Notes under the pieces: model-generated
Databases searched by the model: none
Told to the model about the DNA's origin: nothing
The model's input: only the letters and a program-made list of their open reading frames with translations
Assembly: GCF_003025005.1 (NCBI RefSeq)
Contig: NZ_PVSS01000006.1
Coordinates: 124,001-188,000, forward strand
Length of the DNA: 64,000 nt
Direction: 5' to 3'
DNA from: Brumimicrobium mesophilum
Lineage (GTDB): Bacteria > Bacteroidota > Bacteroidia > Flavobacteriales_D > Crocinitomicaceae
In this document: one piece after another, positions 9,589 to 61,729 of the stretch
Layout: each line of letters begins with the position of its first letter
Numbering within the stretch: the stretch's first letter is position 1
Program-made: the position numbers and the translations under genes

Positions 9589-9744
9589 GCTAAACAAATG
9601 TTTTATAAAACTCCCATTGATAATGGGTTGAGAAGCATTCAGAGAATAATTAACTTGATGTAGAAATTACGCTGAAATAACATTTTTACAGGCTATTTTA
9701 TTATCTGAATAAGATGGTATAAATATTGGTGTAATCTTTCAATT

Positions 9745-10647
9745 ATGAAACTATTTAAACGCTTTGTATTTTTCATTTTTTGCATGAGTTTTCCTCAATT
9801 CTCACAGGCTGGAATTACAATAAAAAAAGCACTATCCGAAAGTTATTATTCTATCGAAAATTCAAATAGGAAATTTCAATATAATTCCGTCAATATTGAT
9901 GAATACGACGATGAAATTATTCAAATTATCAATAAATACAGTAATTTAAATAGATTTGGTGGTATTTATGAATACGCTAAAGTGATAGATTTAATCCTCG
10001 TAGAAATTAATAAACTGGAATTTGTATCCGATGCTTTTTATGACAAATGTGCAGTGAAAAATTCGATATTCCCTGTTCCATTCAGGATAGGTGTTAAACT
10101 TTTAGTAAACGACTTGACCATAGAAAAATGCTATGATATTGTGGTATGTCCAGTTGACGAGAGAAAGCGTTTTTTCGGAAAAAGCAGGAAAATCTTGAGT
10201 AATAGAGTTGATTATTTAAGCAATTACATTAAAAATGGGTTTATAGATGAGCAAAGAGCGATTTGCGCAACTATTTCGAAATATGATGATGTTTGGAAAG
10301 TGAGAGATGAGTTAGCACTAAATATGGTTTTTATGGATACCCTCAATTATTTTGTTGTTGACTCTTTAACACATAATTTGGGACTGATTTCGGATGACCA
10401 ATTAGTGATTACCAAATACATGAAATATATTGGGGAAGAAGAAATCACTTTAAAACGCATTAATAATTTACCATTTTACATTGCCGTATTCCCACAAACG
10501 ACGCTCATGAAAAATCAAACTTATTTGTTTACAGTAATTTTTCCATTTGAAAATAACGTCAGACCATTTCAAACTGAACTAGGATTTGAATTATCCAATG
10601 GAAGTAGTTTAATGTTTGAATTTAAAGGGAATAATCAAATTAAATAA
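9745..10647 (+). CDS. Secreted protein of unknown function
   Basis: The protein has 300 residues, a signal peptide (hydrophobic 5-20, ending in SQAG) and no recognisable domain. Two Cys pairs (DKCAVKN and KCYDIVVCP, with a later ICATIS) could form disulfides in the periplasm. The stop is 6 bases from the next start, so it is probably co-transcribed with the beta-barrel-like gene at 10654. I can give no function. Confidence 0.65.
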   Translation: MKLFKRFVFFIFCMSFPQFSQAGITIKKALSESYYSIENSNRKFQYNSVNIDEYDDEIIQIINKYSNLNRFGGIYEYAKVIDLILVEINKLEFVSDAFYDKCAVKNSIFPVPFRIGVKLLVNDLTIEKCYDIVVCPVDERKRFFGKSRKILSNRVDYLSNYIKNGFIDEQRAICATISKYDDVWKVRDELALNMVFMDTLNYFVVDSLTHNLGLISDDQLVITKYMKYIGEEEITLKRINNLPFYIAVFPQTTLMKNQTYLFTVIFPFENNVRPFQTELGFELSNGSSLMFEFKGNNQIK

Positions 10648-14172: not shown

Positions 14173-14934
14173 GTGGTATCCGACCCAATCAAAAAAACAT
14201 TCAATTTGCAATTAGAAATAGAAAATCCAAGAATCAAATGTTACAAATGCTTAAGGCCTGCAAGCACTTGTATTTGTAAACACATCAGTCCTTTGCACAC
14301 CAAGACGAGGTTTATTATTCTTATGCACCCGATGGAGTACAACAAGGAGAAAAACGGAACGGGACGTATGACCAATCTTCAGCTTGAAAATTCAGAAATT
14401 ATTGTTGGTGTTGATTTCACCGATAATAAACGTGTGAATGAAATACTGAATAAAGAAAATAGTTCTTCTTTTTTGCTTTATCCAGGGAAAGATAATTTCA
14501 ACTTATCGACCAGAGAAAGTTCAGAAATCATTTTATTTATGGGGGATGACCCGCACATCTTCCTGCTTGATGGAACTTGGCCTTGCGCTCGAAAAATGCT
14601 TAAAATGAGTAAGAACTTACAAAAACTAAAAAGAGTGAGTTTTGACAATAAAATCAAATCGAAATTTATTATCAAGCAACAACCAGAAGCTCTTTGTTTG
14701 AGTACGATTGAATCCGTATTTACTGTCTTGAATTTACTCAAGAAAGGTGACTTTGAACAATGCAACACTGAGAATTTCCTTTTGCCTTTCGAAAAAATGA
14801 TTGAGCATCAACTCGAATTTATCCTTCACCCAGATAATGAAAGCTATCATTCAAATGCGAACAGAGAGTACATACCGAAGAACATGTACAAGAAAGACTC
14901 GGAAAGAAATATTTTTTTTGAACAAGAAGGTTAG
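14173..14934 (+). CDS. DTW-domain tRNA-uridine aminocarboxypropyltransferase
   Basis: The 253-residue protein contains the Cys cluster CYKCLRPASTCICK (residues about 18-31), which probably binds a metal, then LMHPMEYNKEKNGTGRM and the DTW signature as LLDGTWPCARKMLK, near residues 132-145. DTW enzymes such as TapT/TuaA transfer the 3-amino-3-carboxypropyl group of SAM to a tRNA uridine (acp3U). The only start before the Cys cluster is GTG at 14173; the next ATG is inside the domain, so GTG is likely. The C-terminus (to 253) is a little longer than usual. Confidence 0.85.
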   Translation: MVSDPIKKTFNLQLEIENPRIKCYKCLRPASTCICKHISPLHTKTRFIILMHPMEYNKEKNGTGRMTNLQLENSEIIVGVDFTDNKRVNEILNKENSSSFLLYPGKDNFNLSTRESSEIILFMGDDPHIFLLDGTWPCARKMLKMSKNLQKLKRVSFDNKIKSKFIIKQQPEALCLSTIESVFTVLNLLKKGDFEQCNTENFLLPFEKMIEHQLEFILHPDNESYHSNANREYIPKNMYKKDSERNIFFEQEG

Positions 14935-15017
14935 CTGTTTATAATGTTGAAATTGATTAAGTTCAACCGGAATCATATTTAAAACGCTATCACAAATCAA
15001 TAAGAATAATAAAACAA

Positions 15018-15665
15018 ATGACAGCTGAAGAATTCATAGAAACTTTAGAAATGATTGATCGGGATTATCCTGGAGCAATTCCTAAAAGAGAAATTTTTGC
15101 TTTGGCGAAAGAATATCAGCAAATGCCAGTCGATGAGGTGGTGAAATTATTGAAAAGTAACTCAGATGATCAAAAACTCAGTGCTGTTTCAATTTTAGAT
15201 TGGAAAGCAAGAAACAAGAAAACTTCCGAAGAACAACGGAAAACCATTTTTGAAGCTTACATCGATAATCATGAATTTATTGTTGATTGGGGAATGGTTG
15301 ACAGAGCAGCGCCTTATGTTGTTGGAGGATACTTGCATGATAAGAACAGGAAGCCTTTGTATGATTTAGCGCATTCCAAAAACCCAATGGAACGCCGTAC
15401 AGCCATTGTGAGTACATATTTTTTTATTCGCAAAAATGAAATTGAAGATACTTTTAAAATTGCTGAAATTCTAGTTCACGATACTGAACATTTCGTTCAA
15501 ACTGCAGTAGGAAGTTGGGTGAGAGAAGCTGGAAAACGAGATGAAGAAAAATTAAGGAATTTTCTTGATCAATACGCTGCCGAAATGCCTAGAATTATGA
15601 TACGTGGCGCGATAAAGAAATTAGATTCCGAAACGAGGAGGTATTATTTGAGTTTGAAAAGGTAA
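15018..15665 (+). CDS. AlkD-like DNA alkylation repair glycosylase
   Basis: This 215-residue, all-helical HEAT-like repeat protein matches the DNA alkylation repair family. Conserved features include VVKLLKSNSDDQKLSAVSIL, the DWGMVDRAAPYVVGG motif (residues about 90-104, with the family's catalytic-type Asp), NPMERRTAIVST, and the TAVGSWVREAGKRDE helix near the end. Members remove positively charged N3- and N7-alkylated purines from DNA. Length is close to the usual 220-240. Confidence 0.85.
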   Translation: MTAEEFIETLEMIDRDYPGAIPKREIFALAKEYQQMPVDEVVKLLKSNSDDQKLSAVSILDWKARNKKTSEEQRKTIFEAYIDNHEFIVDWGMVDRAAPYVVGGYLHDKNRKPLYDLAHSKNPMERRTAIVSTYFFIRKNEIEDTFKIAEILVHDTEHFVQTAVGSWVREAGKRDEEKLRNFLDQYAAEMPRIMIRGAIKKLDSETRRYYLSLKR

Positions 15666-50593: not shown

Positions 50594-52533
50594 TGAGAAT
50601 TTTAATAGTATTAGTTATATTTTTAAGCGCCTCTTTTGCTGCTTTGTCTCAAGAAATTGGACAAGAAACTAGAGATGGTAAATTATTTAAGGTTCATGCT
50701 GTTGAAGCAGGGAATACTTTATATGGATTACATATTAAATATGATGTAACTATAGAGTCTATTATTAAATTTAATCCTACTGCAAAAGAAGGTTTGCAGG
50801 TAGGACAAATTCTTTATATTCCAACAGACGGTAGCTCCGCAAAGACGGAAACTCAAGATAAATTCAGAATTCATACGGTAAAGCGAAAAGAAACACTTTA
50901 CGGTATTTCTCGTGAATATGGAGTAACTGTGGCTGAGATAATTCGATTGAACCCAGGTTCTGATCAAGGTCTAGATATTAAACAAGAGCTTAAAATTCCT
51001 TTTCCATCTAAGGAAGAAGAAAAACCATTAATTGCAGAAGATAAAATCAAGGAAACTAAGGAAGAAAAAACTTCAGAAGAAAAAACTAAACCAAAAGATT
51101 TTGAACCACACAATCCGTTCAAAAAGGATTCAGTTACCGTGATCGATTACAAAGTTGACTTCAAGGACAGTATCGTAAACTATAAGGTTCAACAAGGGGA
51201 GACGCTATATTCGATTTCTAGAAGATTTATGGTTCCTGTTGAGCAATTAGTTGAACAAAATAATTTGTCTGGTAGTTCAATAAGTCCAGGACAAATATTA
51301 ACAATTAAATTAAAACAGGAGAGAATTGAAGAAGTTGAGGTTCGAGAATTGGTGAATTTGAATACAATCAAAAAATCCAATGTCCACTTGGTGAAGAAAA
51401 AAAATAAATATAAAGTACTGGTTGCTTTGCCGATGAAGTTGGGTTCAAATTCTCAAGCTATATCTGGAATGTTTACTGAGACTACTTCGCTAAATACGCT
51501 AACCAATTTATCAGTTGAATTTTTAATGGGCGCTCAATTAGCCTTAGATTCACTAGAAAAATTAGGTTTGAATGCTGATGTTGAGTTTTTTGATACTTAT
51601 GGGGATTTAGATAAGTTAAAAGAAAAGTTGGACAGTAGAAATGCAAACGATATTGATGTAGTGATTGGGCCATTTTATCCTCAGCTTTTAGACTATGCGG
51701 CGCAGTGGGGAATGAATAATAAGGTTCCAATTGTGGCCGTTACCAAAATACCAACTAAAGTCTTAGAAAATAACCCTTACGTTCTTTCTATGGTTCCTTC
51801 AGAATTAACTATGATCAGTGCAATGGCAAGATATTTAGCTAAAAATCATGTAAATGACAATATTGTAATTATTGATGGTGAAAATACAGAAGTAAGAGAA
51901 AGAGTTCAATATTTTAAGGATGCGTTTGAGAAGAGTCAACCTTTGGTAGGTAGAAAATCACTAAAGTCTTCAGGAATGGGTGATGCCTCAGGTAGAACTT
52001 TAGTGAACCTTATTCAAACAGATGGTAATAACTTTATTATTTGCCTTTCTAATGATGTACAACAAGTAATGAAGTTTGTGAATACACTTAATGCTGCGAA
52101 AAACTACAGTGGTAGTTACGGACGAGCATCTGTTACTATGGTTGGTTTAAATAATTGGTTAGAAATTCCGGCCTTAAATAGTTACTATAGAAACCGTTTT
52201 GAGTTCCATTTTCCTGCTGCCAATTATTTGAATTATGATTCTCCAGAAGTAAAGGAATTCACGAGAGAGTACCGTTTAAAATATAAATCTGATCCATCTA
52301 AGTATGCCTTTCATGGTTTTGATGTGATGTTATCACAAGGGTCTTCACTGTTACTTGGATATAGCAGAGATAATGGATTAATGGATAGTTTTGATGTTCA
52401 GTCTCTCGGAGGAAATCACGGTAGTGAAAATTCAAGCGTATTCATTTCAAAACAAAGTGATTTTGAAATTATATTGTTAGAAATCATTTCAAATACCAAT
52501 AAGTTTGATGTTAAACAAAGAGGAGGTAATTAA
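50593..52533 (+). CDS. Triple LysM protein with a type I periplasmic-binding-protein-like domain
   Basis: From ATG 50593 (TAATG overlap with guaA) it has 646 residues and a signal peptide ending in ALSQ. Three LysM repeats follow at about 35-80, 100-145 and 205-250 (GNTLYGLHIKYDVTIESI, KETLYGISREYGVTVAEI, GETLYSISRRFMVPVEQL). The rest, about 280-640, has the type I binding-protein fold (VEFLMGAQLALDSLEKL, DVVIGPFYPQLLDYAAQW, VPIVAVTKIPTKVLENN). LysM binds peptidoglycan, so it should sit at the cell wall. The C-terminal fold is also that of the LpoA activator of penicillin-binding proteins; a similar role is only inferred. Confidence 0.87.
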   Translation: MRILIVLVIFLSASFAALSQEIGQETRDGKLFKVHAVEAGNTLYGLHIKYDVTIESIIKFNPTAKEGLQVGQILYIPTDGSSAKTETQDKFRIHTVKRKETLYGISREYGVTVAEIIRLNPGSDQGLDIKQELKIPFPSKEEEKPLIAEDKIKETKEEKTSEEKTKPKDFEPHNPFKKDSVTVIDYKVDFKDSIVNYKVQQGETLYSISRRFMVPVEQLVEQNNLSGSSISPGQILTIKLKQERIEEVEVRELVNLNTIKKSNVHLVKKKNKYKVLVALPMKLGSNSQAISGMFTETTSLNTLTNLSVEFLMGAQLALDSLEKLGLNADVEFFDTYGDLDKLKEKLDSRNANDIDVVIGPFYPQLLDYAAQWGMNNKVPIVAVTKIPTKVLENNPYVLSMVPSELTMISAMARYLAKNHVNDNIVIIDGENTEVRERVQYFKDAFEKSQPLVGRKSLKSSGMGDASGRTLVNLIQTDGNNFIICLSNDVQQVMKFVNTLNAAKNYSGSYGRASVTMVGLNNWLEIPALNSYYRNRFEFHFPAANYLNYDSPEVKEFTREYRLKYKSDPSKYAFHGFDVMLSQGSSLLLGYSRDNGLMDSFDVQSLGGNHGSENSSVFISKQSDFEIILLEIISNTNKFDVKQRGGN

Positions 52534-53416
52534 TAGGTTAAAGTCAGTTCAAGATTATATTTGTAAAAAACTTGAAGAACTAGATGGTGTAGCGAAATTT
52601 CATGAAGACAATTGGGTCCGTGAAGAAGGTGGTGGCGGAAGAACACGAATCCTTTCCGATGGAGCTATCATTGAAAAAGGCGGAGTAAATTTCTCGGCTG
52701 TACATGGACCGGTCTCTGAAGTAATGAAGAATCAACTTGGGCTCGATGGTAATGATTTTCTTGCTACAGGAGTCTCAATTGTTATTCACCCAAAGAATCC
52801 TTTTCACCCAATAATGCATATGAATGTTCGTTATTTTGAAATGGATACTGGTGTTTATTGGTTTGGAGGTGGTATAGATATGACGCCGCACTATATTGAC
52901 TTTCCCAAAGCTCAAATGTTCCATCAAGAGCTGAAAAAAGTATGTGATAAATATAATTCAGAATTCTACTCAAAATTCAAAACTTTGGCAGATGATTATT
53001 TTTACATTCCACACAGAAACGAAACAAGAGGAGTAGGAGGTATCTTTTACGACCATTTAACTGATAAAGATGGTTTATCGAAAGAAGGGCTTTTAGATTT
53101 TGCAATAGATCTAGGAGAATTATTTCCTAAGGTTTATGCTGATCAAATTGAATTTGACCGCTCACCTTCTTTTACAACTGAAAATGAAGAATGGCGAAAC
53201 CTGCGAAGAGGACGTTATGTTGAATTTAATTTAGTTCATGATAGAGGAACAAAGTTCGGATTAAAAACAGGTGGTAGAATTGAATCTATTCTGATGAGTT
53301 TACCTAAAAATGCATCTTGGTTTTATGATTTTAAAGCTGAGAAAGGCTCTAAAGAACAAGAAACCCTAAATTGGTTGAAAAAGGATGTTGATTGGCTTAA
53401 TTTGGCTTCTAAATAG
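52508..53416 (+). CDS. hemF: Oxygen-dependent coproporphyrinogen III oxidase
   Basis: Heme synthesis enzyme decarboxylating coproporphyrinogen III with O2. From ATG 52508 it has 302 residues, near the family's 300. Motifs: FHEDNWVREEGGGGRTRIL, HPKNPFHPIMHMNVRYFEM, GGGIDMTPHYI, YIPHRNETRGVGGIFYD and the closing RRGRYVEFNLVHDRGTKFGL. A TTG three bases earlier is also in frame. The start lies within the 3' end of the LysM gene (26-base overlap), so translation may be coupled. It implies aerobic life. Confidence 0.96.
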   Translation: MLNKEEVINRLKSVQDYICKKLEELDGVAKFHEDNWVREEGGGGRTRILSDGAIIEKGGVNFSAVHGPVSEVMKNQLGLDGNDFLATGVSIVIHPKNPFHPIMHMNVRYFEMDTGVYWFGGGIDMTPHYIDFPKAQMFHQELKKVCDKYNSEFYSKFKTLADDYFYIPHRNETRGVGGIFYDHLTDKDGLSKEGLLDFAIDLGELFPKVYADQIEFDRSPSFTTENEEWRNLRRGRYVEFNLVHDRGTKFGLKTGGRIESILMSLPKNASWFYDFKAEKGSKEQETLNWLKKDVDWLNLASK

Positions 53417-53847
53417 CTACTGTTGTTCCTAAAACTATAATTTCTAATTCCCGAGAGTTGCTATTACTTGAATTGTATATTATCTGAACTTTTTGGTAGA
53501 CCAAATCGTCATTATGAAATTCATTGTTGGTTTCCTTTATTGTATGCAGAATGTTATTGAAGGATCTTTAGACGGGTGAAAGGATGTTATGAAAGCAATG
53601 CTTAATTGTGTAATTAATTCAAAACTTAGAGCCTAATTGAATTGAACAGCTCACGAAAGAGGTACATTATTACGTATCTTACGTAAATGTACCTGAATTT
53701 TCTGAATTGTACTTTTCTTTATAATGTCTATCAATATGGCTTAGAACCTTCAATGTGTAAACTAAAAAATCGATATACATGTTAGTATTTCCTTAACATA
53801 TATATCGATTTTCAAATAAAAAGGTATTCAGAATTGTTGGTACATTT
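53417..53847. other. Intergenic region after hemF
   Basis: About 430 bases without a gene. Apart from the hairpin at 53764-53812 I see no structured element or RNA gene. Confidence 0.4.
53764..53812 (-). terminator. Intrinsic terminator, AAAATCGATATA stem
   Basis: Arms AAAATCGATATA (53766-53777) and its complement (53801-53812) enclose an inner GTTA/TAAC pair; on the minus strand a T-run follows. It lies 36 bases after the barrel gene stop. The stem sequence recurs after the paralogous gene at 57573. Confidence 0.75.
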
Positions 53848-54522
53848 TTATGGTCTAAATGTCAAACCAACTGTAGTACTAATTATCCCAGTTACATTTT
53901 TTGAACTTATTAAGTTATCAGTATCATAAGTAACACCTTGACTGAATTGTGTGAAGTGACTAACATCTAAATTAATTGACCATTTTTGGTTTAAATGAAA
54001 TTGTGGAGTCAAACCTAGAATTATGTGTCCAATATCATCTTGGTTTGTAATGAATTTTTCAGAATCTGCAATACCATTTTCCTTTCTAAAGTCTATAAAT
54101 GATGGATTACGCAAGGTAGTTAACCCCGCACCTGCATGAAAATTCAAAGAGAACTTTCTCGATTTCTTTTCTCCTAGCAATTGTATAAGTCTCAGCATTA
54201 CTTCTGCGGAAGCTCCTACAGAAAACGATCTGTCAATAACGCCATTGTAAGTGGCTTTAAACTGGTTGTAATCTAATCTACCTTTAACACCTATTATGTC
54301 ATTGAAGTAGTAACCAAGTCCTGCGTTAAAGCTTTGTCCTGCTGACATTTCTGCGATTGCTGACGTTTCTCCTAAGTATCTTGCTCCAGCATTTAAATCT
54401 AGGAACAGGCCAGTTTTGTGCCAATTAACAGAATTATTACTGTTTGAATTTTCTCGGCCTGACTGCGCTACAGCAGAGAATGCAATGACAGATAGAAGTA
54501 GTAGAATAGCTGTTTTTTTCAT
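53848..54522 (-). CDS. Outer membrane beta-barrel protein, paralog of the 57573 gene
   Basis: A 224-residue protein with a signal peptide ending in AVAQ (residue 20), then barrel strands: TGLFLDLNAGARYLGETSAI, SFNAGLGYYFNDIIGVKGRLDY, FSLNFHAGAGLTTLRNPS and a C-terminal STTVGLTFRP. It is colinear with the 57573 product, roughly half identical by eye, with the same ends. It is probably an OmpA-like-barrel without a peptidoglycan domain. It lies at the end of the O-acylation block. Function unknown. Confidence 0.8.
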   Translation of the reverse strand: MKKTAILLLLSVIAFSAVAQSGRENSNSNNSVNWHKTGLFLDLNAGARYLGETSAIAEMSAGQSFNAGLGYYFNDIIGVKGRLDYNQFKATYNGVIDRSFSVGASAEVMLRLIQLLGEKKSRKFSLNFHAGAGLTTLRNPSFIDFRKENGIADSEKFITNQDDIGHIILGLTPQFHLNQKWSINLDVSHFTQFSQGVTYDTDNLISSKNVTGIISTTVGLTFRP

Positions 54523-54639
54523 GATTAAAAAAATTTGATGTGTTTTATTTAAAGTTATTGGTTTTCTTGTTTAACATTTTTGTAAAGTTAATATTCTTTT
54601 TTGTAGAAAAATGAGAAATAACCTTTAATATCTTAGATT

Positions 54640-55602
54640 TCAATTATTTTGGTTATCTTTTATAGCATGGACCATTTTTTCGGTAATAATCTTTGCTCCA
54701 GCTCTATTGGGATGTGTTGGATCCACAAAATATTCATCCTGAAGCAAATTAGTATAGTCCAAAACCTTTACACCAATTTCTTTTTGGAATTCCTTTATTT
54801 TCTTACTGTAATCTTTAGGTAGATAGTCAAAACCTATTGGGGAAAAAGGCATAAAGACAATTACGAACTCCACGTTCTTGGACCTAAAATATTGGGAGGC
54901 GAGTATTAGTTTTTCAATAACCTCTTTGTTTATTTTTAAAGTGTCTTTAATTTTACGATTTGAATAATTCCTCAGAAATTTATCATACTCTTTTTGGGGA
55001 GCTCGTTCATAGTTGTACAAATATGGATAAGTTAAATCATAAATATTTTCAGAAAGTGCATTGGGTTCCAAAATCGTTCGTAAATAGGTGTGGATACCTT
55101 GTTTCAAAAAACTTTTTGAATTGTAAGTAGCTAATAATTTGTTTGCGCTTATCGTGTTTTGTGCTTTTTCAGATAGTAGGCTGCTATCATTTGGATCGTA
55201 TTCAAAACCAGTTAGAATTAGACGACTCGCTTTTTTATTATTTAGTTTGAGAGACTTTGAAATTTTATTAACGTCAAGACATTGTATTACAACTTTAGTT
55301 CCTTCCTTAAGTTTTGGATAGAATAGTGCTGATTCGGAAAGGGACTGTCCAAGGCTTGTAAATGATGCCACAGATGCATTATTGAATTTTTTAGAAATTA
55401 AATATCCATCAATTCCTGTCATTGCCTTACTGTCTCCAAATATTACAATTTCAGGAATTAAATCATCATCATTTGACCATTTATTAATCAATGTTAAACG
55501 TTTAGTATCATCTGTAACTATGGGGATTATTAAAGTAGTAATAAAATAACTAATTATTAATCCTAAAACGATATATCCTATTTGTAAAATTAAGTTTTTC
55601 AT
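54640..55602 (-). CDS. Membrane-anchored SGNH-fold protein, partner of the MBOAT acyltransferase
   Basis: From ATG 55602 the protein has 320 residues; an ATG at 55644 would overlap the MBOAT gene. One N-terminal helix (about 4-27) leads to a periplasmic SGNH-like domain with the nucleophile motif IVIFGDSKAM (GDS at 56-58) and the C-terminal DPTHPNRAG (Asp294, His297). Proteins like this (AlgX, DltD, PatB types) move acyl groups delivered by an MBOAT partner onto polysaccharide or act as esterases. It starts four bases after the MBOAT stop, which supports joint action. Confidence 0.8.
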   Translation of the reverse strand: MKNLILQIGYIVLGLIISYFITTLIIPIVTDDTKRLTLINKWSNDDDLIPEIVIFGDSKAMTGIDGYLISKKFNNASVASFTSLGQSLSESALFYPKLKEGTKVVIQCLDVNKISKSLKLNNKKASRLILTGFEYDPNDSSLLSEKAQNTISANKLLATYNSKSFLKQGIHTYLRTILEPNALSENIYDLTYPYLYNYERAPQKEYDKFLRNYSNRKIKDTLKINKEVIEKLILASQYFRSKNVEFVIVFMPFSPIGFDYLPKDYSKKIKEFQKEIGVKVLDYTNLLQDEYFVDPTHPNRAGAKIITEKMVHAIKDNQNN

Positions 55603-55606
55603 TTTA

Positions 55607-57052
55607 TTAAAATTGGAAATAAATAAAATCAGAAGAACTGCCACTAAAGTAATAGATTGAAACTACAATAAATATAGTGCTGAACATCATAGAAACTTGT
55701 GATTTAGAAGATTCAAAAACGAAATGATCTTTACGGTATTTCCATTCAAACAAGATCATGATTAAAATATAGAATAGTGAAATCATAGCTGTAGTATTGT
55801 TTGGTCCGACAAAGGTTGGAATTGAAAGAATACTACTAGAAAACATTCTAGATATATACATGTATGCATCGTTAATTGATTCTGATCTAAAAATTATCCA
55901 ACCAATAACAACTAATAGGAAAGTACATAATATCTGCATTAATTCCTTGAGCGTTGGAAAAGTTTTATTTTCGGCTACAGGGGTTAAAAATTTACGGTTT
56001 TTATTTAGGAGTACTAGAGGTAAAAATAGAATTGCATGATATGCACCCCATACGATAAAAGTCCAATTTGCTCCATGCCAAAACCCACTTACCAAAAAGA
56101 TAATTATTGTATTTCGGAAGGCTTTATTCTTACCATCCCTTGAACCACCTAATGGTATATATACATAATCTCTAAACCATGTTGATAGTGAGATGTGCCA
56201 GCGTCTCCAGAATTCTGCTATATCTCTTGATAAATATGGATAAGCAAAGTTTTTCTTTAAGTCAAATCCAAATAATTTCCCTGTTCCTATTGCGATGTCA
56301 GAATATCCAGAAAAATCACCATATATTTGAAATGTAAACATGATGGCACCGAAAAATAATGTAGAAGCACTTACATCATTATAATTGGAAAATACGGAAT
56401 TCGCTATTACGGCACAATTGTCAGCAATAACCATCTTTTTTAGAAGTCCCCACATAATTTGCCTTATCCCTTCTAATGCAAAAGAACTATTAAAGATTCG
56501 TTTGATATAAAATTGTGGTAGCAAATTCGTAGCTCTTTCGATTGGTCCAGCAACGAGTTGAGGGAAGAAGCTTACAAAGGCCGAAAAAGCAATGAAATCT
56601 TTTGTTGGTTCCAGCTTTCTCTTGTAAACATCTATTGTGTAGCTCAATGTTTGAAAAGTATAAAAACTGATTCCTACTGGTAAGATAATATTCAGTGTAT
56701 TCGCCTTTATTTCTGTTCCGAATAATGAAAAAGCAGTGATGAAATTATCTACAAAGAAATTGTAGTATTTAAAGAAACCTAAGAATCCTAGATTTACAAT
56801 AATACTAATCCATAAGAGCAGTTTTCTTTGAGGAATTCGTTCTTCTATTATTAGTTTACGACCTATTAGGTAGTCAATCAGAGTACTGAAAATAATTAGG
56901 GATAAAAACCTCCAATCCCACCAGCCGTAAAATACATAGCTCGAAACTACAATCAATAAATTTTGTAACCTCAAATTATTGTTGGTTACAAACCAATAAA
57001 GTATAAAAACTATTGGTAAAAATATTGCAAAGTCTAACGAGTTAAAAAGCAT
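55607..57052 (-). CDS. MBOAT-family O-acyltransferase (AlgI/DltB-like)
   Basis: The 481-residue inner membrane protein has about 11-12 helices and family motifs: FLPIVFILYWFV, VSSYVFYGWWDWRFL, LPVGISFYTFQTLSY, FPQLVAGPIERATNLLPQ, SRDIAEFWRRWHISLSTWFR and the catalytic FWHGANWTFIVWGAYHA (His about 325 and 338). Such proteins carry acetyl or other acyl groups across the membrane for transfer to an extracellular glycan. The acceptor is not known; the nearby Wza/Wzc pair suggests an exported polysaccharide. Confidence 0.92.
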   Translation of the reverse strand: MLFNSLDFAIFLPIVFILYWFVTNNNLRLQNLLIVVSSYVFYGWWDWRFLSLIIFSTLIDYLIGRKLIIEERIPQRKLLLWISIIVNLGFLGFFKYYNFFVDNFITAFSLFGTEIKANTLNIILPVGISFYTFQTLSYTIDVYKRKLEPTKDFIAFSAFVSFFPQLVAGPIERATNLLPQFYIKRIFNSSFALEGIRQIMWGLLKKMVIADNCAVIANSVFSNYNDVSASTLFFGAIMFTFQIYGDFSGYSDIAIGTGKLFGFDLKKNFAYPYLSRDIAEFWRRWHISLSTWFRDYVYIPLGGSRDGKNKAFRNTIIIFLVSGFWHGANWTFIVWGAYHAILFLPLVLLNKNRKFLTPVAENKTFPTLKELMQILCTFLLVVIGWIIFRSESINDAYMYISRMFSSSILSIPTFVGPNNTTAMISLFYILIMILFEWKYRKDHFVFESSKSQVSMMFSTIFIVVSIYYFSGSSSDFIYFQF

Positions 57053-57572
57053 GTTAAATAGATTTTTTCTAAAGGTGCTATTAAGAACAACTAGCGATTA
57101 TTAGATCAATATTAAGTAAAAAAATTCGGGATTAAATGTAATGTATTTTTCTGATATATATACGTTTAGAATATATGAATTAGAAAGTAATTGCAATTAC
57201 ATCTTATTATTTTACCATCTACTGTGCTAATTGTGCTAAAGATATAGTTTGGTTTCATTACATTCTAAAAAGACATTTGCCTTTGAATAGTTGTAAGCTT
57301 CAAGTGTTAAATTGACTTTGGTTAACTTGACAATAAAATTCCTACCCTATATTAACCGTATTTCTTACCTTACTTATGAAAGGTTGTCCTTCTTCTAATG
57401 TGTTATGCAGCTATTTTGAGTAATACTTTTTATAGACTGTCATGATCCATTCCTTCATTTAATTACTTGTAAATAGATCAAATAAAAAAATCGATATCAG
57501 AACTTCAAATTAATTTGTCGTTCTAATATCGATTTTATTGTTGTAAATCTTCTTTTGAAGATCTCAATTATA
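57053..57572. other. Intergenic region before the MBOAT gene
   Basis: A 520-base AT-rich gap; only the terminator hairpin at 57487-57536 is recognisable. The MBOAT promoter should lie here, but no exact -7 match was found near its start. Confidence 0.35.
57487..57536 (-). terminator. Intrinsic terminator with the same stem as at 53764
   Basis: AAAATCGATATCAGAAC at 57487-57503 pairs with GTTCTAATATCGATTTT at 57520-57536 (one mismatch or bulge); on the minus strand a T-run follows. It lies 36 bases after the stop at 57573, the same distance as in the paralog. Confidence 0.8.
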
Positions 57573-58244
57573 TTATGGTCTGAATGTCAGTCCTATTGTT
57601 GTAGAAACTATTCCAGTTACACTCTTAGTATCAACATAGTTATGTTTATCATAAGTTTTATGTTGTTTGAATTGAGAGAATTGGCTTATATCCAGGTTAA
57701 TAGATAATCTTGAATTAAAATGATACTGAGGTGTAATACCAACAATAATGTGCCCCATGTTATCCGCAGGGAATAATTTACCTTTATAGTCATCATATTT
57801 TGATTCAAGGAAATCTTTGTATGATGGATTACGTAGAGCAGTTAAACCAGCTCCAGCATGAAGGTTTAAAGAGAAATCACGAGCTCTTTTATTTGCAAAT
57901 ACTTGTAATAATCTTACCATAACTTCAGCAGATCCTGCAATAGATCCTGAACGGTCTGTTACATTTCCATAGGAGGCTGAAAATTGGTTGTAATCTAACC
58001 TTCCTTTAAGTGCGATTTTATCATTGAAGAAATACCCTAAACCAGCATTGAAACTTGGACCTGCAGACATATCTGCGATATCAGATGTTTGACCTAAAAA
58101 TCTTCCTCCTGCATTGGCGTCAAGGAACCATCCAATTTTATACCAATTTACTTTTAGGTTACCCATAGCCATTTGAGGACCCGTTTGTGCCTTTGCTGTA
58201 AATACGAAGATTGAAAGCAATAATAGAATAGAAATTTTCTTCAT
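57573..58244 (-). CDS. Outer membrane beta-barrel protein, paralog of the 53848 gene
   Basis: The 223-residue protein has a signal peptide ending in AKAQ and barrel strands matching its paralog: IGWFLDANAGGRFLGQTSDI, SFNAGLGYFFNDKIALKGRL, SLNLHAGAGLTALRNPSY and STTIGLTFRP at the C-terminus. The main differences are in one loop (around residues 150-175). Its -7 element TAATTTTG lies 74 bases upstream, so it has its own promoter and terminator. Function unknown. Confidence 0.8.
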   Translation of the reverse strand: MKKISILLLLSIFVFTAKAQTGPQMAMGNLKVNWYKIGWFLDANAGGRFLGQTSDIADMSAGPSFNAGLGYFFNDKIALKGRLDYNQFSASYGNVTDRSGSIAGSAEVMVRLLQVFANKRARDFSLNLHAGAGLTALRNPSYKDFLESKYDDYKGKLFPADNMGHIIVGITPQYHFNSRLSINLDISQFSQFKQHKTYDKHNYVDTKSVTGIVSTTIGLTFRP

Positions 58245-58474: not shown

Positions 58475-60877
58475 TTAACGTTTGAAAAATTGATACCATT
58501 TTTTCTCTTCCTGATTGGATCCATAAGTTTGTCCATATCCATACCCATATTTACCATAGCCGTACCCTGCCTTTTTGCGATTACTTCCATTGAAGATAAA
58601 CGCGATATTTCCTACCTTTTTTTCTCTTTTAAGATTCAAAGGAAGATTTAAAGAATTTTTATGGGCAAAGTCAGCCTTTACAACATATAACAATAAGTCG
58701 GCATGATCAAGAATAGATATTGTATCGACTACTAGAGCCATAGGAGAGGTATCAACAATAATGTAATCGTATTTTGTTTTTAATTCAGCAAAAAGATCTG
58801 TTAATCTTGGTCTAGTCAATAACTCACTTGGGTTAGGAGGAATATCTCCCGAGAAAATATAATCAAAATTAATATCACCACTTCCCGGGTAAATTATTGA
58901 ATCAAGATCAATGTCTGAATTTGCTAAATAGTTAGAAACTCCTAAAAGGGTCTCTTCGTGGTTTAAATATTCAGATAACTTAGGAGCACGAAGGTCTAAA
59001 CCAACTAGAACAACCTTCTTGTTTGTTAGTGATAAAGAGTTAGCTAAGTTTATAGAAGTGAATGATTTACCTTCACTCGGTAATGTTGAACTAAGAAAAA
59101 TAACATTTCCTATATCAGCCTTGTTTTCCAAAAGAAACTTCATATTCGTTCTTACCATTCGATAGGCTTCTGAAATGATCGTTCTTTCTCCTTTTTTTGT
59201 AACTAAGTTATCCTTGGTTTTATTAAGTGGTATATCTCCAACAACTGAAATTTCTGTGGCTTCCAATTCTTCAACACTTCTAATTTTATTGTCGATTAAG
59301 TCTCTAATGTAAATAAATAAGATAGGTACTAGCAAACCTAATATTAAGGCAGAAATGAAAATGATTTCTCTTTTAGGTCCTACAGGTTTCGAATTCGCAT
59401 AAGCAACATCAATAGTTTTTACATTACCAATTGTAGAAGCCATTGCAATCTCATTTTCCTCTCTTTTTTCCAAAAGATATAAATATAAGGTTTCCTTAAG
59501 ATTTTGTTGACGTAGAATTTCTCTATATCTTCTTTCCATTTCTGGAATGTCAGACAACCTGCTATTATATTTTCTAGACTCCTTCTTTAGTTCTTTTAAT
59601 TCTAACTGAAGGCTTCTTTTGGAATTGTTTAAACTTTGAGTCAAACTGTTCTTAACAGAATTAATTTGGCTTTCAAGTTGAATGGCAATTGGATTGTTTT
59701 TACTTGAATTTGTAATTATTTTATTTCGATCTAAAATAAGCTTGTTATAATCAGATGACATTTGGTTAATGGACAAGTCACTAAATCCTAAATTGGAAGG
59801 AAGTAAAGTTGTATTGTCAGAATTCTTTTCAAGATATTCTTTTAAATATTCAGACATACTTAATTGTATGTTTGATTGTATAATCCTGTCCTCTATAATA
59901 CTCTCTTGTTGTAATATAATAGAAGCGTTTTTCTCAACGTCTACGAGTTGATTATCTGTTTTGAATTTCTCATTTACACCTTCTACTTTTGATAACTCTT
60001 CTGACAGAATTATCATTCTTTCAGCAATAAATTCACTTGTATTTTTAGTGATTTCGTTTTTGTCAGCAATAGCATTTTGTTCATGTATAACAATAATCTG
60101 ATTAAGGAAATCATTGTTTGCTTGTTTCATTAAACCCTGTGCCGATAAGGTTAATACAGAAGCTTCTTTACTTATGGAAGGTGTAACTTCGAATTTAGAC
60201 TTCCATCTATTGGTAGCTGATTCTAAAGTTGAAACCTTAAAATTGAAGTGCTCTCCTTTATGGATATCACCGAAATTTTCCGTTTTACTAACGTTTATTT
60301 TCCCTCCTATGGTTTCAAATGCTTGATTAAACTTGAATTCTCCTAAGAGTTTATTTACTAGCGATCCGTTCTCGTTGAAATTCTGGTGAGCAACAAATGT
60401 TTCATTATTAACTTGTGATATATCTATAGAATAATTTCGAGTATAATGATCTACAGTAGAATCAATAAAATTAAATTTGAAAGGAGAGTCATCAGTATAG
60501 TAATATGTATTAGCACTTAAGGGTCCTCCAGTCTTTGTGATTTGTGTGTTTAATTGTAGTGATTGGACTACTTTCTTCACCAAGTCTCTAGATTTAAAGA
60601 CTTCAATTTCATTATAAAGATTTGAATATCCTCTTGATCCGCCAAGCTCTGCAAATAAGTCAATATCTGTAACTAATCCACCTCTTTTATCATCCTTTAC
60701 CAAAACTGTTGAAGTACTTTGGTAGATAGAGGGTTCACCTTTTAGGTATAAAAAGGCAATACCAACAAATAATATTGTAATTGCTACGATCCATTTCCAA
60801 TGTTGTAGATATTTACCTACTGTTTCCTGAAAATTGACATTGTCATCAGTTTGTTGTTCAAAAATTTGCTGTTGCAT
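58475..60877 (-). CDS. Wzc-type polysaccharide co-polymerase and tyrosine autokinase
   Basis: The 800-residue protein has a Wzz domain with two helices (about 30-50 and 505-525), a large periplasmic coiled-coil region between them, and a cytoplasmic BY-kinase: Walker A STLPSEGKSFTSINLA (about 602), Walker A' VVLVGLDLRAPKL and Walker B DYIIVDTSPMA (about 706). The tail is a tyrosine cluster (KAGYGYGKYGYGYGQTYG), the usual autophosphorylation site. It controls chain length and export of a capsule or exopolysaccharide together with Wza, encoded 31 bases upstream. Confidence 0.93.
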   Translation of the reverse strand: MQQQIFEQQTDDNVNFQETVGKYLQHWKWIVAITILFVGIAFLYLKGEPSIYQSTSTVLVKDDKRGGLVTDIDLFAELGGSRGYSNLYNEIEVFKSRDLVKKVVQSLQLNTQITKTGGPLSANTYYYTDDSPFKFNFIDSTVDHYTRNYSIDISQVNNETFVAHQNFNENGSLVNKLLGEFKFNQAFETIGGKINVSKTENFGDIHKGEHFNFKVSTLESATNRWKSKFEVTPSISKEASVLTLSAQGLMKQANNDFLNQIIVIHEQNAIADKNEITKNTSEFIAERMIILSEELSKVEGVNEKFKTDNQLVDVEKNASIILQQESIIEDRIIQSNIQLSMSEYLKEYLEKNSDNTTLLPSNLGFSDLSINQMSSDYNKLILDRNKIITNSSKNNPIAIQLESQINSVKNSLTQSLNNSKRSLQLELKELKKESRKYNSRLSDIPEMERRYREILRQQNLKETLYLYLLEKREENEIAMASTIGNVKTIDVAYANSKPVGPKREIIFISALILGLLVPILFIYIRDLIDNKIRSVEELEATEISVVGDIPLNKTKDNLVTKKGERTIISEAYRMVRTNMKFLLENKADIGNVIFLSSTLPSEGKSFTSINLANSLSLTNKKVVLVGLDLRAPKLSEYLNHEETLLGVSNYLANSDIDLDSIIYPGSGDINFDYIFSGDIPPNPSELLTRPRLTDLFAELKTKYDYIIVDTSPMALVVDTISILDHADLLLYVVKADFAHKNSLNLPLNLKREKKVGNIAFIFNGSNRKKAGYGYGKYGYGYGQTYGSNQEEKKWYQFFKR

Positions 60878-60908: not shown

Positions 60909-61703
60909 TTAATTAAATACTATTGTGTACGTTGTTAGTATTAGAGCTACTAATGATATAAATATACCACCTGATGTTCTCCATACCGTTCCTTGAGTCC
61001 TTTTTGCTGTGTTAGGCTCTATATATACAACATCATTTTGTTGTAAGTAGTACACTGGTGAGCTAAAAACTTCATCGGTTTTTAAATTAATTCTGTACTG
61101 CGCTCTTTTACCATTTTCTTCTCTTATAACTAAAACGTTTTCACGTTCTCCTGTTATATCTAAATCTCCAGATAAACCTATAGCTTCTAGTAATGTAATT
61201 CGCTCATTAGGAATATTGTAAGTACCTGGTCTATTAACATCTCCAAGAACTGTAATTTTATAATTCTGAATTTGAATGTTTACAACAGGGTTTTTAAGAT
61301 AAAGTGCATATCTCTTTTCTAAAATATCTGTTGCAACAGTTCTACTTAAACCTCCTAGTTTGATTTTTCCTAAAACAGGTAGGTTAACGATTCCATCAGG
61401 GTCTATTAGGTATCCGGATTTTGCTGCATTACCAGTCATGTAACCTTGATTTAGAGGTCTTCCTCCACCTGATTCAGGGTAATTAAAAGGAATAACACTT
61501 TCAGGATCGTTAGCTGTTATTACAACAGATAAGAAGTCATCAGGTTTTAGAGTTGGGGTAAATTGCATGTTTTGTTTTACACTGTCTTGTGCAAGACTGT
61601 CTTGATTACTTGTTTGGAAGTATATCATTTTTTCACGTGTACCACAAGATCCAAGCAGGATAGCAAAGCCAAGGAAGATTAATATAGAGGGTATTTTTAA
61701 CAT
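60909..61703 (-). CDS. Wza-type polysaccharide export lipoprotein
   Basis: From ATG 61703 the 264-residue protein has the lipoprotein signal MLKIPSILIFLGFAILLGSC. A poly-export domain (LKPDDFLSVVITANDPESV, GYLIDPDGIVNLPVLGKI) and an SLBB domain (ITVLGDVNRPGTYNIPNERI, LLEAIGLSGDLDITGERENV) follow, then a C-terminal membrane helix (GGIFISLVALILTTYTIVF) that closes the outer-membrane channel. An ATG at 61724 lies inside the -7 promoter element, so the shorter start is right. It pairs with Wzc. Confidence 0.92.
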   Translation of the reverse strand: MLKIPSILIFLGFAILLGSCGTREKMIYFQTSNQDSLAQDSVKQNMQFTPTLKPDDFLSVVITANDPESVIPFNYPESGGGRPLNQGYMTGNAAKSGYLIDPDGIVNLPVLGKIKLGGLSRTVATDILEKRYALYLKNPVVNIQIQNYKITVLGDVNRPGTYNIPNERITLLEAIGLSGDLDITGERENVLVIREENGKRAQYRINLKTDEVFSSPVYYLQQNDVVYIEPNTAKRTQGTVWRTSGGIFISLVALILTTYTIVFN

Positions 61704-61721
61704 AGTATATATATAAGTGGG

Positions 61722-61729
61722 CAAATATA
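61722..61729 (-). promoter_or_regulatory. -7 element of the wza-wzc transcript (TATATTTG)
   Basis: Exact TAnnTTTG match on the minus strand, 18 bases before ATG 61703. It overlaps the alternative ATG at 61724. Confidence 0.55.

Follow-up and report, generated by a model that had tools for sequence, protein, structure and literature searches.

The stretch analysed here (the window) covers 64,000 nucleotides of the genome of Brumimicrobium mesophilum, a marine bacterium with a genome of 3.88 Mb (G000 in the synteny comparison), and contains an OPX/Wzc polysaccharide export cassette followed by two paralogous genes for predicted small outer-membrane barrels, between which an acyltransferase pair is located. 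The minus strand carries, in this sequence, lolA-like, opx (wza), wzc, barrel copy 2, terminator 2, MBOAT, SGNH, barrel copy 1 and terminator 1, with hemF lying opposite on the plus strand. The features are as follows.

53764..53814, minus strand: terminator hairpin of barrel copy 1, stem AAAATCGATAT/ATATCGATTTT, arms at 53766-53776 and 53802-53812, between the convergent hemF and barrel 1 genes
53848..54522, minus strand: barrel copy 1, 224 residues, signal-peptide-like start, OMP_b-brl (PF13505)
54640..55602, minus strand: putative SGNH acyltransferase partner, 320 residues, hydrophobic anchor at the N-terminus, Ser58 (FGDS), Asp294 and His297 (DPTH)
55607..57052, minus strand: MBOAT acyltransferase, 481 residues, PF03062, stop 4 bases ahead of the SGNH start codon
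55610..55627, minus strand: codons of the last six MBOAT residues, FIYFQF, in agreement with the acyl-shuttle motif FXYXXF
57485..57538, minus strand: terminator hairpin of barrel copy 2, same stem as copy 1, arms at 57487-57497 and 57526-57536
57573..58244, minus strand: barrel copy 2, 223 residues, in the wzc-adjacent slot of single-copy orthologues, 8 strands in the AlphaFold2 model
58475..60877, minus strand: Wzc-type polysaccharide co-polymerase / tyrosine kinase, 800 residues, Wzz, GNVR and AAA_31, TIGR01007 at 110 bits (cut-off 108.05)
60909..61724, minus strand: OPX (Wza-type) export lipoprotein, 271 residues, or slightly fewer as the start is uncertain; Poly_export, SLBB and, at the C-terminus, a hydrophobic helix-like segment
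61846..62484, minus strand: LolA-like gene, a conserved neighbour, Pfam matches weak and under cut-offs
52505..53416, plus strand: convergent flank, a gene that we take to be hemF-like, neighbour also in G006, G056, G102 and G027

Comparison of the two barrel proteins revealed an identity of 60% over the full length and confirmed the C-terminal ends TVGLTFRP (copy 1) and TIGLTFRP (copy 2) by which the pair had initially been recognized. The barrel family has exactly two matches in the genome, both of them the window copies. Downstream of each gene a hairpin is predicted, with folds of -22.5 kcal/mol (z -9.0) for copy 1 and -23.0 kcal/mol (z -7.8) for copy 2 when compared with shuffled sequence. 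The initial annotation had placed matching hairpins 36 bases after both stops; the shared stem AAAATCGATAT was found in both and the spacing is correct for copy 2, whereas the hairpin of copy 1 starts 35 bases after the stop. In the 3.88-Mb genome, a 10-base stem pattern followed 10-30 bases on by its reverse complement has 2 occurrences, namely the two hairpins of this locus, which rules out a terminator sequence widespread in the genome; the reversed control of the pattern has no occurrence genome-wide. When 35 downstream hairpins selected from the window were compared with each other (595 pairs), the barrel pair was found to share 11 bases of stem and the next best pairs 7. The likeness of the terminators rests on this direct comparison; in a five-sequence downstream alignment the two hairpins were shifted against each other. 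The single-copy orthologue in G006 is followed by a hairpin whose stem resembles this one in part (CCGATATAT; L065, about 9700-9760), and the G056 and G102 orthologues differ. The window stem may thus be partly ancestral.

In a tree of 19 barrels the window copies are sisters with a support of 98/97, copy 1 being on the longer branch (0.50 vs 0.21 for copy 2). The codon alignment gave a DNA identity of 64% between the copies and 0.43 at third positions, and copy 2 compared to the single-copy orthologues gave 62-64% and 0.43-0.47. The estimated synonymous divergence (dS) between the copies is 3.8 and saturated. The copies had been expected to exceed other family members in DNA identity, which they do not, and to match in their terminators, which they do. 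As their identity is no higher than that of copy 2 to the orthologues, the duplication is old; the third-position identity and the saturated dS rule out a recent one, and the duplication is seen in the tree and the terminator, not in the DNA identity. In G006, G056 (B. glaciale) and G102 (B. oceani) the same block has a single barrel, located between wzc and hemF, and lacks an acyltransferase, and in G027 three tandem barrels occupy the same site without an acyltransferase beside them. The sister copies and their common stem bear out the initial view that gene and terminator were duplicated as one unit, and together with the single barrel and the missing pair in the first three congeners they agree with a local duplication that now holds the pair between its copies. 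This is the shortest history and is supported as an old, lineage-specific one. Tandem barrels recur in the family (three in G027; two each in G078, G114, G129 and G150; two plus a third elsewhere in G151), and the window duplication with an inserted acyltransferase pair is ordinary by itself.

Both barrels score over the gathering threshold of PF13505 OMP_b-brl (31.3 and 34.8 bits vs 28.7). The peptidoglycan-binding domain PF00691 was absent from both in the Pfam scan, setting them apart from OmpA proper. The AlphaFold2 model of copy 2 has 8 strands with a pLDDT of 82.1 and a pTM of 0.72, and the strand number suggests that the barrel is closed. Foldseek comparison of this model against solved structures returned OmpA first (E 2.8e-08, TM 0.56 by query), with OmpW, NspA and OmpX in the first ten; the barrel profile gave no match to solved structures. 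Many of the sister-genus homologues are in longer open frames. Five of the eight that were scanned contain the PF00691 OmpA domain, three of these five together with TSP3 repeats. The window proteins look like OmpA-type proteins that may have been reduced to the barrel. Near the export clusters of L141 (860-2755) and L143 (17756-19252), OmpA-type proteins have long PDVTPTPDVTP repeat linkers between the barrel and the OmpA-like end.

Next to barrel copy 2, the protein with PF02563 and SLBB adjoins the protein with Wzz, GNVR and kinase regions, as expected of an OPX cassette with Wzc. The profiles of the window-type OPX and of the barrel were searched over all 240 family genomes, with at most 11 and 12 candidates per genome, respectively, fully scored, so that both lists may miss members. 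Both genes were found in 69 genomes, the barrel only in 22, the OPX only in 30 and neither in 119, corresponding to an odds ratio of 12 (p 1e-17) in a test that ignores relatedness and completeness. The two genes are within 25 kb of each other in 28 of the 69 genomes and within 10 kb in 13, where about 1.6 and 0.65 are expected assuming a 3.0-Mb genome and random positions and ignoring relatedness. Eight of the 28 linked genomes belong to the genus, the main source of the OPX profile, and outside the genus the count is 20 of 61. Of 19 genomes in which the barrel stands alone, 10 have an OPX gene (PF02563) on the same contig at a distance of no more than 20 kb (0.46 expected under a simple random model). 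The linkage is seen in varied surroundings and genera, including G043, G078, G094, G011, G114, G009, G079, G050, G092, G125, G088, G104 and others. Reading of 12 sister-genus loci placed a barrel or OmpA gene directly after wzc in three (L132, L133 and L135), which is the slot used in Brumimicrobium, and two barrel genes one gene upstream of OPX in L134; in other loci the barrel gene is further off, often beyond a glycosyltransferase cluster, and in L139 it is outside the extracted stretch. As a separate observation, the barrel in G139 and G164 (L073:9928-13321 and L093:6554-9433) is near an APS kinase, a PAPS reductase and an elongation-factor-like GTPase, which could hint at a sulphated polymer.

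The control consisted of 26 other OPX loci of barrel-bearing genomes, and none of them had a recognized small barrel in the flanks read, which extended to at most about 7 kb in either direction and were shorter where a contig ended. The scan also took in the OPX region of G114. Its filter, which picks up 20 of 21 known barrels, passed 14 proteins here. Pfam scanning of four gave two SLT transglycosylases, one peptidase and one protein without a match; the remaining ones were taken, by eye and from their ends, for lipoproteins (in some cases the OPX itself) or for proteins of other kinds. In the OPX tree the window-type clade (n=15) has a barrel within 7 kb in eight cases, further off in two and none on the contig in five. 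A post-hoc Fisher test of cassette type versus small barrel within 7 kb (8 and 2 against 0 and 26) yielded a p of 1.5e-06 and is illustrative only, as the classes were set after viewing the loci. Tables of 8 and 1 and of 4 and 1 against 0 and 26 were also run, and all leave out the linked multi-SLBB OPX of G011 as well as G114, whose nearest barrel is about 13 kb from OPX. The congener G067 has the export cassette and no match to the window barrel family. There, one PF13568 barrel adjoins wzc and a second lies upstream of opx, separated from it by two small genes (L102:9008-9676 and 14690-15355); the two are alike by eye and neither matches the window barrel-family profile. That a different Pfam family provides barrels at this position, once more as a pair, is a good indication that the cassette calls for a small barrel. 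The more constant company of the barrel is an OPX and Wzc export cassette of one type, not the MBOAT.

The MBOAT gene between the barrels was found as annotated (PF03062, 98.8 bits), and its protein is related to the solved DltB (6bug, E 2.5e-27). In addition to PF03062 it carries the C-terminal FIYFQF; FXYXXF is the shuttle motif described for MBOAT-SGNH systems, as given in PMC12148441. The SGNH assignment of the partner was upheld in part. None of its Pfam matches reaches the cut-off, those to SGNH/GDSL families falling below it, and a model of low confidence (pLDDT only 59) matches DltD first in Foldseek (6o93, E 3.5e-05). The profile search against solved structures gave nothing convincing (DltD E 0.21, GDSL lipase E 0.049). 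Ser58, Asp294 and His297 are invariant in 4 aligned SGNH proteins, namely the window one, two others of the genome and one of G043. In the order (399 genomes, up to 5 candidates scored in each), the 398 genomes other than that of B. mesophilum gave no match to the SGNH protein at E<=1e-5; its MBOAT partner, unlike it, has matches in 8 of 10 genus genomes. Judged by its sequence, the ACYLTRANSFERASE pair (MBOAT and SGNH) looks complete. A foreign origin of the pair was considered from composition, and the GC content (0.30-0.32 vs 0.31 for wzc) and that of third codon positions (0.24-0.27) are both unremarkable.

It had also been suggested that barrels and acyltransferases form a working unit in which the barrels pass or bind the acylated glycan, with barrels away from any MBOAT gene in relatives named beforehand as the observation against it. 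Such barrels are present in the MBOAT-free blocks of the congeners G006, G056 and G102, each with a single barrel, and of G027 with three. A further congener, G078, carries two barrels, and its whole genome gave no MBOAT match at E<=1e-10, so that an obligate unit is ruled out. Since near relatives have the barrel at this site but not the enzymes, the barrel belongs with export, and the enzymes seem to have been added later. A functional link between barrel and acyltransferase that is confined to B. mesophilum may still exist.

Based on these comparisons, we propose with moderate confidence that the locus is an OPX/Wzc/barrel export cassette, in which the barrel anchors or organizes and is not a channel, in which the barrel and its terminator were duplicated in tandem and the MBOAT-SGNH pair was inserted between the copies, and in which the pair acylates a periplasmic glycan. 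The 8-stranded OmpA-type barrel would be located in the outer membrane beside the OPX exporter, where its most likely role, as suggested by the predicted fold and the gene linkage, is that of an anchor or organizer of the exporter or of the surface polymer. The MBOAT would carry an acyl group, probably acetyl, over the inner membrane to the tyrosine of the FIYFQF tail. Ser58 of the SGNH protein might then accept the acyl group and hand it on to a glycan in the periplasm, for which the polymer exported at this locus is the simplest candidate.

Apart from the limits given with the survey, control and tree counts, several observations weigh against this proposal, and some of them speak for the barrels being passive hitchhikers, that is, general OmpA-like surface proteins whose proximity to opx and wzc is only inherited gene order. 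The linkage comes in part from a single conserved block (G000, G006, G056, G102 and G027), clusters are inherited together and the 28 linked genomes are therefore not independent, the barrel is located elsewhere in several genera, and in 37 of the 69 genomes with both genes the two are not on one contig, many assemblies being fragmented. In G012 the barrel is about 31 and 39 kb from the contig ends and no OPX is found on that contig; the few neighbours of the barrel that were checked in G012, G129, G171, G150, G151, G153 and G045 are of other or no recognized function. A control candidate of 252 residues in G139 (L114:2983-3741), with a signal-peptide-like start and no Pfam match, is near a window-type OPX gene. 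The second G067 barrel reaches 27.1 bits for PF13505, under the cut-off of 28.7, and may thus be a distant relative of the window family. Two of the five barrel models are poor, with mean pLDDT values of 52 and 50. Core-type OPX proteins also end in hydrophobic segments, so this feature is not peculiar to the window type. With five MBOAT matches in the genome (the nearest to the window MBOAT 58% identical and on another contig), the acylated glycan could be another one. Nevertheless, the linkage recurs across differing gene surroundings and genera, barrels of another Pfam family flank the cassette in G067, and 17 core-type OPX loci have no recognized small barrel nearby. Mere hitchhiking is therefore considered rather unlikely.

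Two further explanations give the barrel a more specific task than anchoring. As a polymer-passing partner of a short OPX protein, in the style of the composite translocons EpsY/EpsX, WzaX/WzpX and VpsN/VpsM, it would account for an outer-membrane barrel gene beside short OPX and polysaccharide co-polymerase (PCP) genes. The OPX proteins of the 10 cassettes compared are 258-271 residues long, and a limit of 280 residues was used for the published composite systems in PMC9601211. The model with 8 strands has fewer than the 16 to 18 looked for in a pore, and fewer than the 18 of EpsX (PMC9601211, PMC9603273); with matches of the OmpA/OmpX type, a polymer channel is unlikely. In addition, a C-terminal hydrophobic segment is present in all 10 window-type OPX proteins (mean hydropathy 2.2-2.5 over 17 residues, helix-like by hydropathy alone), and proteins of this group are expected to work like Wza, according to PMC9601211. 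The 8 strands together with a helix-like segment of the OPX's own point to an accessory rather than a pore, and a channel appears highly improbable. Alternatively, copy 1 and the MBOAT-SGNH pair might have arrived jointly from a close relative as a working unit, with a barrel specialized for the acylated polymer, and been inserted between the resident barrel and hemF. The longer branch of copy 1, its lower identity to the single-copy orthologues (51-52%, vs 57-62% for copy 2) and the single strand shared by all four genes would fit this history. So would the congener G043. Its barrel shares a contig and a polysaccharide region with two MBOAT genes at distances of about 19 and 24 kb, and one of the two adjoins an SGNH gene; this arrangement indicates that barrel and MBOAT can be parts of one polysaccharide cluster and weighs slightly against the main proposal. 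However, the copies are sisters at 98/97 and their terminator stem is unique to the two in the genome, the barrel is not next to an MBOAT gene in any of the 7 other genus genomes that have it as a stand-alone protein, and the GC content of the pair is not distinct from that of wzc, which makes a joint arrival distinctly unlikely.

The anchoring barrel proposed here can be compared with several known systems. It resembles the N-terminal barrel of OmpA in its signal-peptide-like start, 8 predicted strands, Pfam matches over cut-off in both copies and first Foldseek match, and differs in having neither TSP3 repeats nor a peptidoglycan-binding domain and in being tied to a polysaccharide export cassette. 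The lectin Wzi and GfcD, of the group 1 and group 4 capsules, are likewise extra outer-membrane barrels beside wza/wzc-type genes; compared by description, not by sequence, they differ in strand number. Wzi has 18 strands and helps to hold the capsule on the cell surface (PMC12220298), and GfcD, from the group 4 capsule operon, has one barrel of 26 strands or two of 12 (PMC8592465). The acyltransferase pair is similar to DltB/DltD, PatA/PatB and AlgI/AlgJ in its adjacent MBOAT and membrane-anchored SGNH genes, FXYXXF tail and Ser/Asp/His residues, DltB and DltD being the first solved matches of the two window proteins; the window SGNH protein is very divergent in sequence.

The exit of polysaccharides through short Wza-like proteins and their retention on the surface are poorly known in Bacteroidota. 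A small barrel or OmpA protein that accompanies one type of exporter is a concrete, testable candidate for a missing outer-membrane part, strengthened by the varied gene orders and by the barrels of another Pfam family in the same place in one species. It is this coupling of an OmpA-type barrel to a Wza-like cassette that is worth following, the acyltransferase insertion being an ordinary event. Among the papers listed, no direct report of small or OmpA-type barrels with Wza/OPX surfaced in a literature search that covered few subscription journals, so that absence is not proven. According to a survey of OPX proteins, the short ones typically fall into two kinds, those coupled to a barrel and lacking a C-terminal helix and those that have the helix but no barrel, the latter mostly in Bacteroidetes (PMC9601211), and the cassette here combines a helix-like segment with a barrel. 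To search for barrels, that survey used models made from EpsX- and VpsM-type proteins (PMC9601211), which may not pick up such small barrels. A broader reading, possible if somewhat doubtful, is that in Crocinitomicaceae a dedicated OmpA-type barrel is the regular partner of a helix-tipped Wza-like OPX and anchors the export machine, to the peptidoglycan where the OmpA domain is present. In Brumimicrobium the barrel would lack that domain and multiply locally, and in B. mesophilum one copy might have diverged to serve a polymer acylated by the inserted pair.

Scanning for the motif TANNTTTG, which we take to be the promoter motif of Bacteroidota, found 2 sites upstream of barrel 2 and 1 within barrel 1, and no site in the gap ahead of the MBOAT gene. 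In the export regions of two congeners a small GIY-YIG domain gene is located near the barrel or opx (L066:11145-11447, PF01541; a similar protein at L102:13799-14119).

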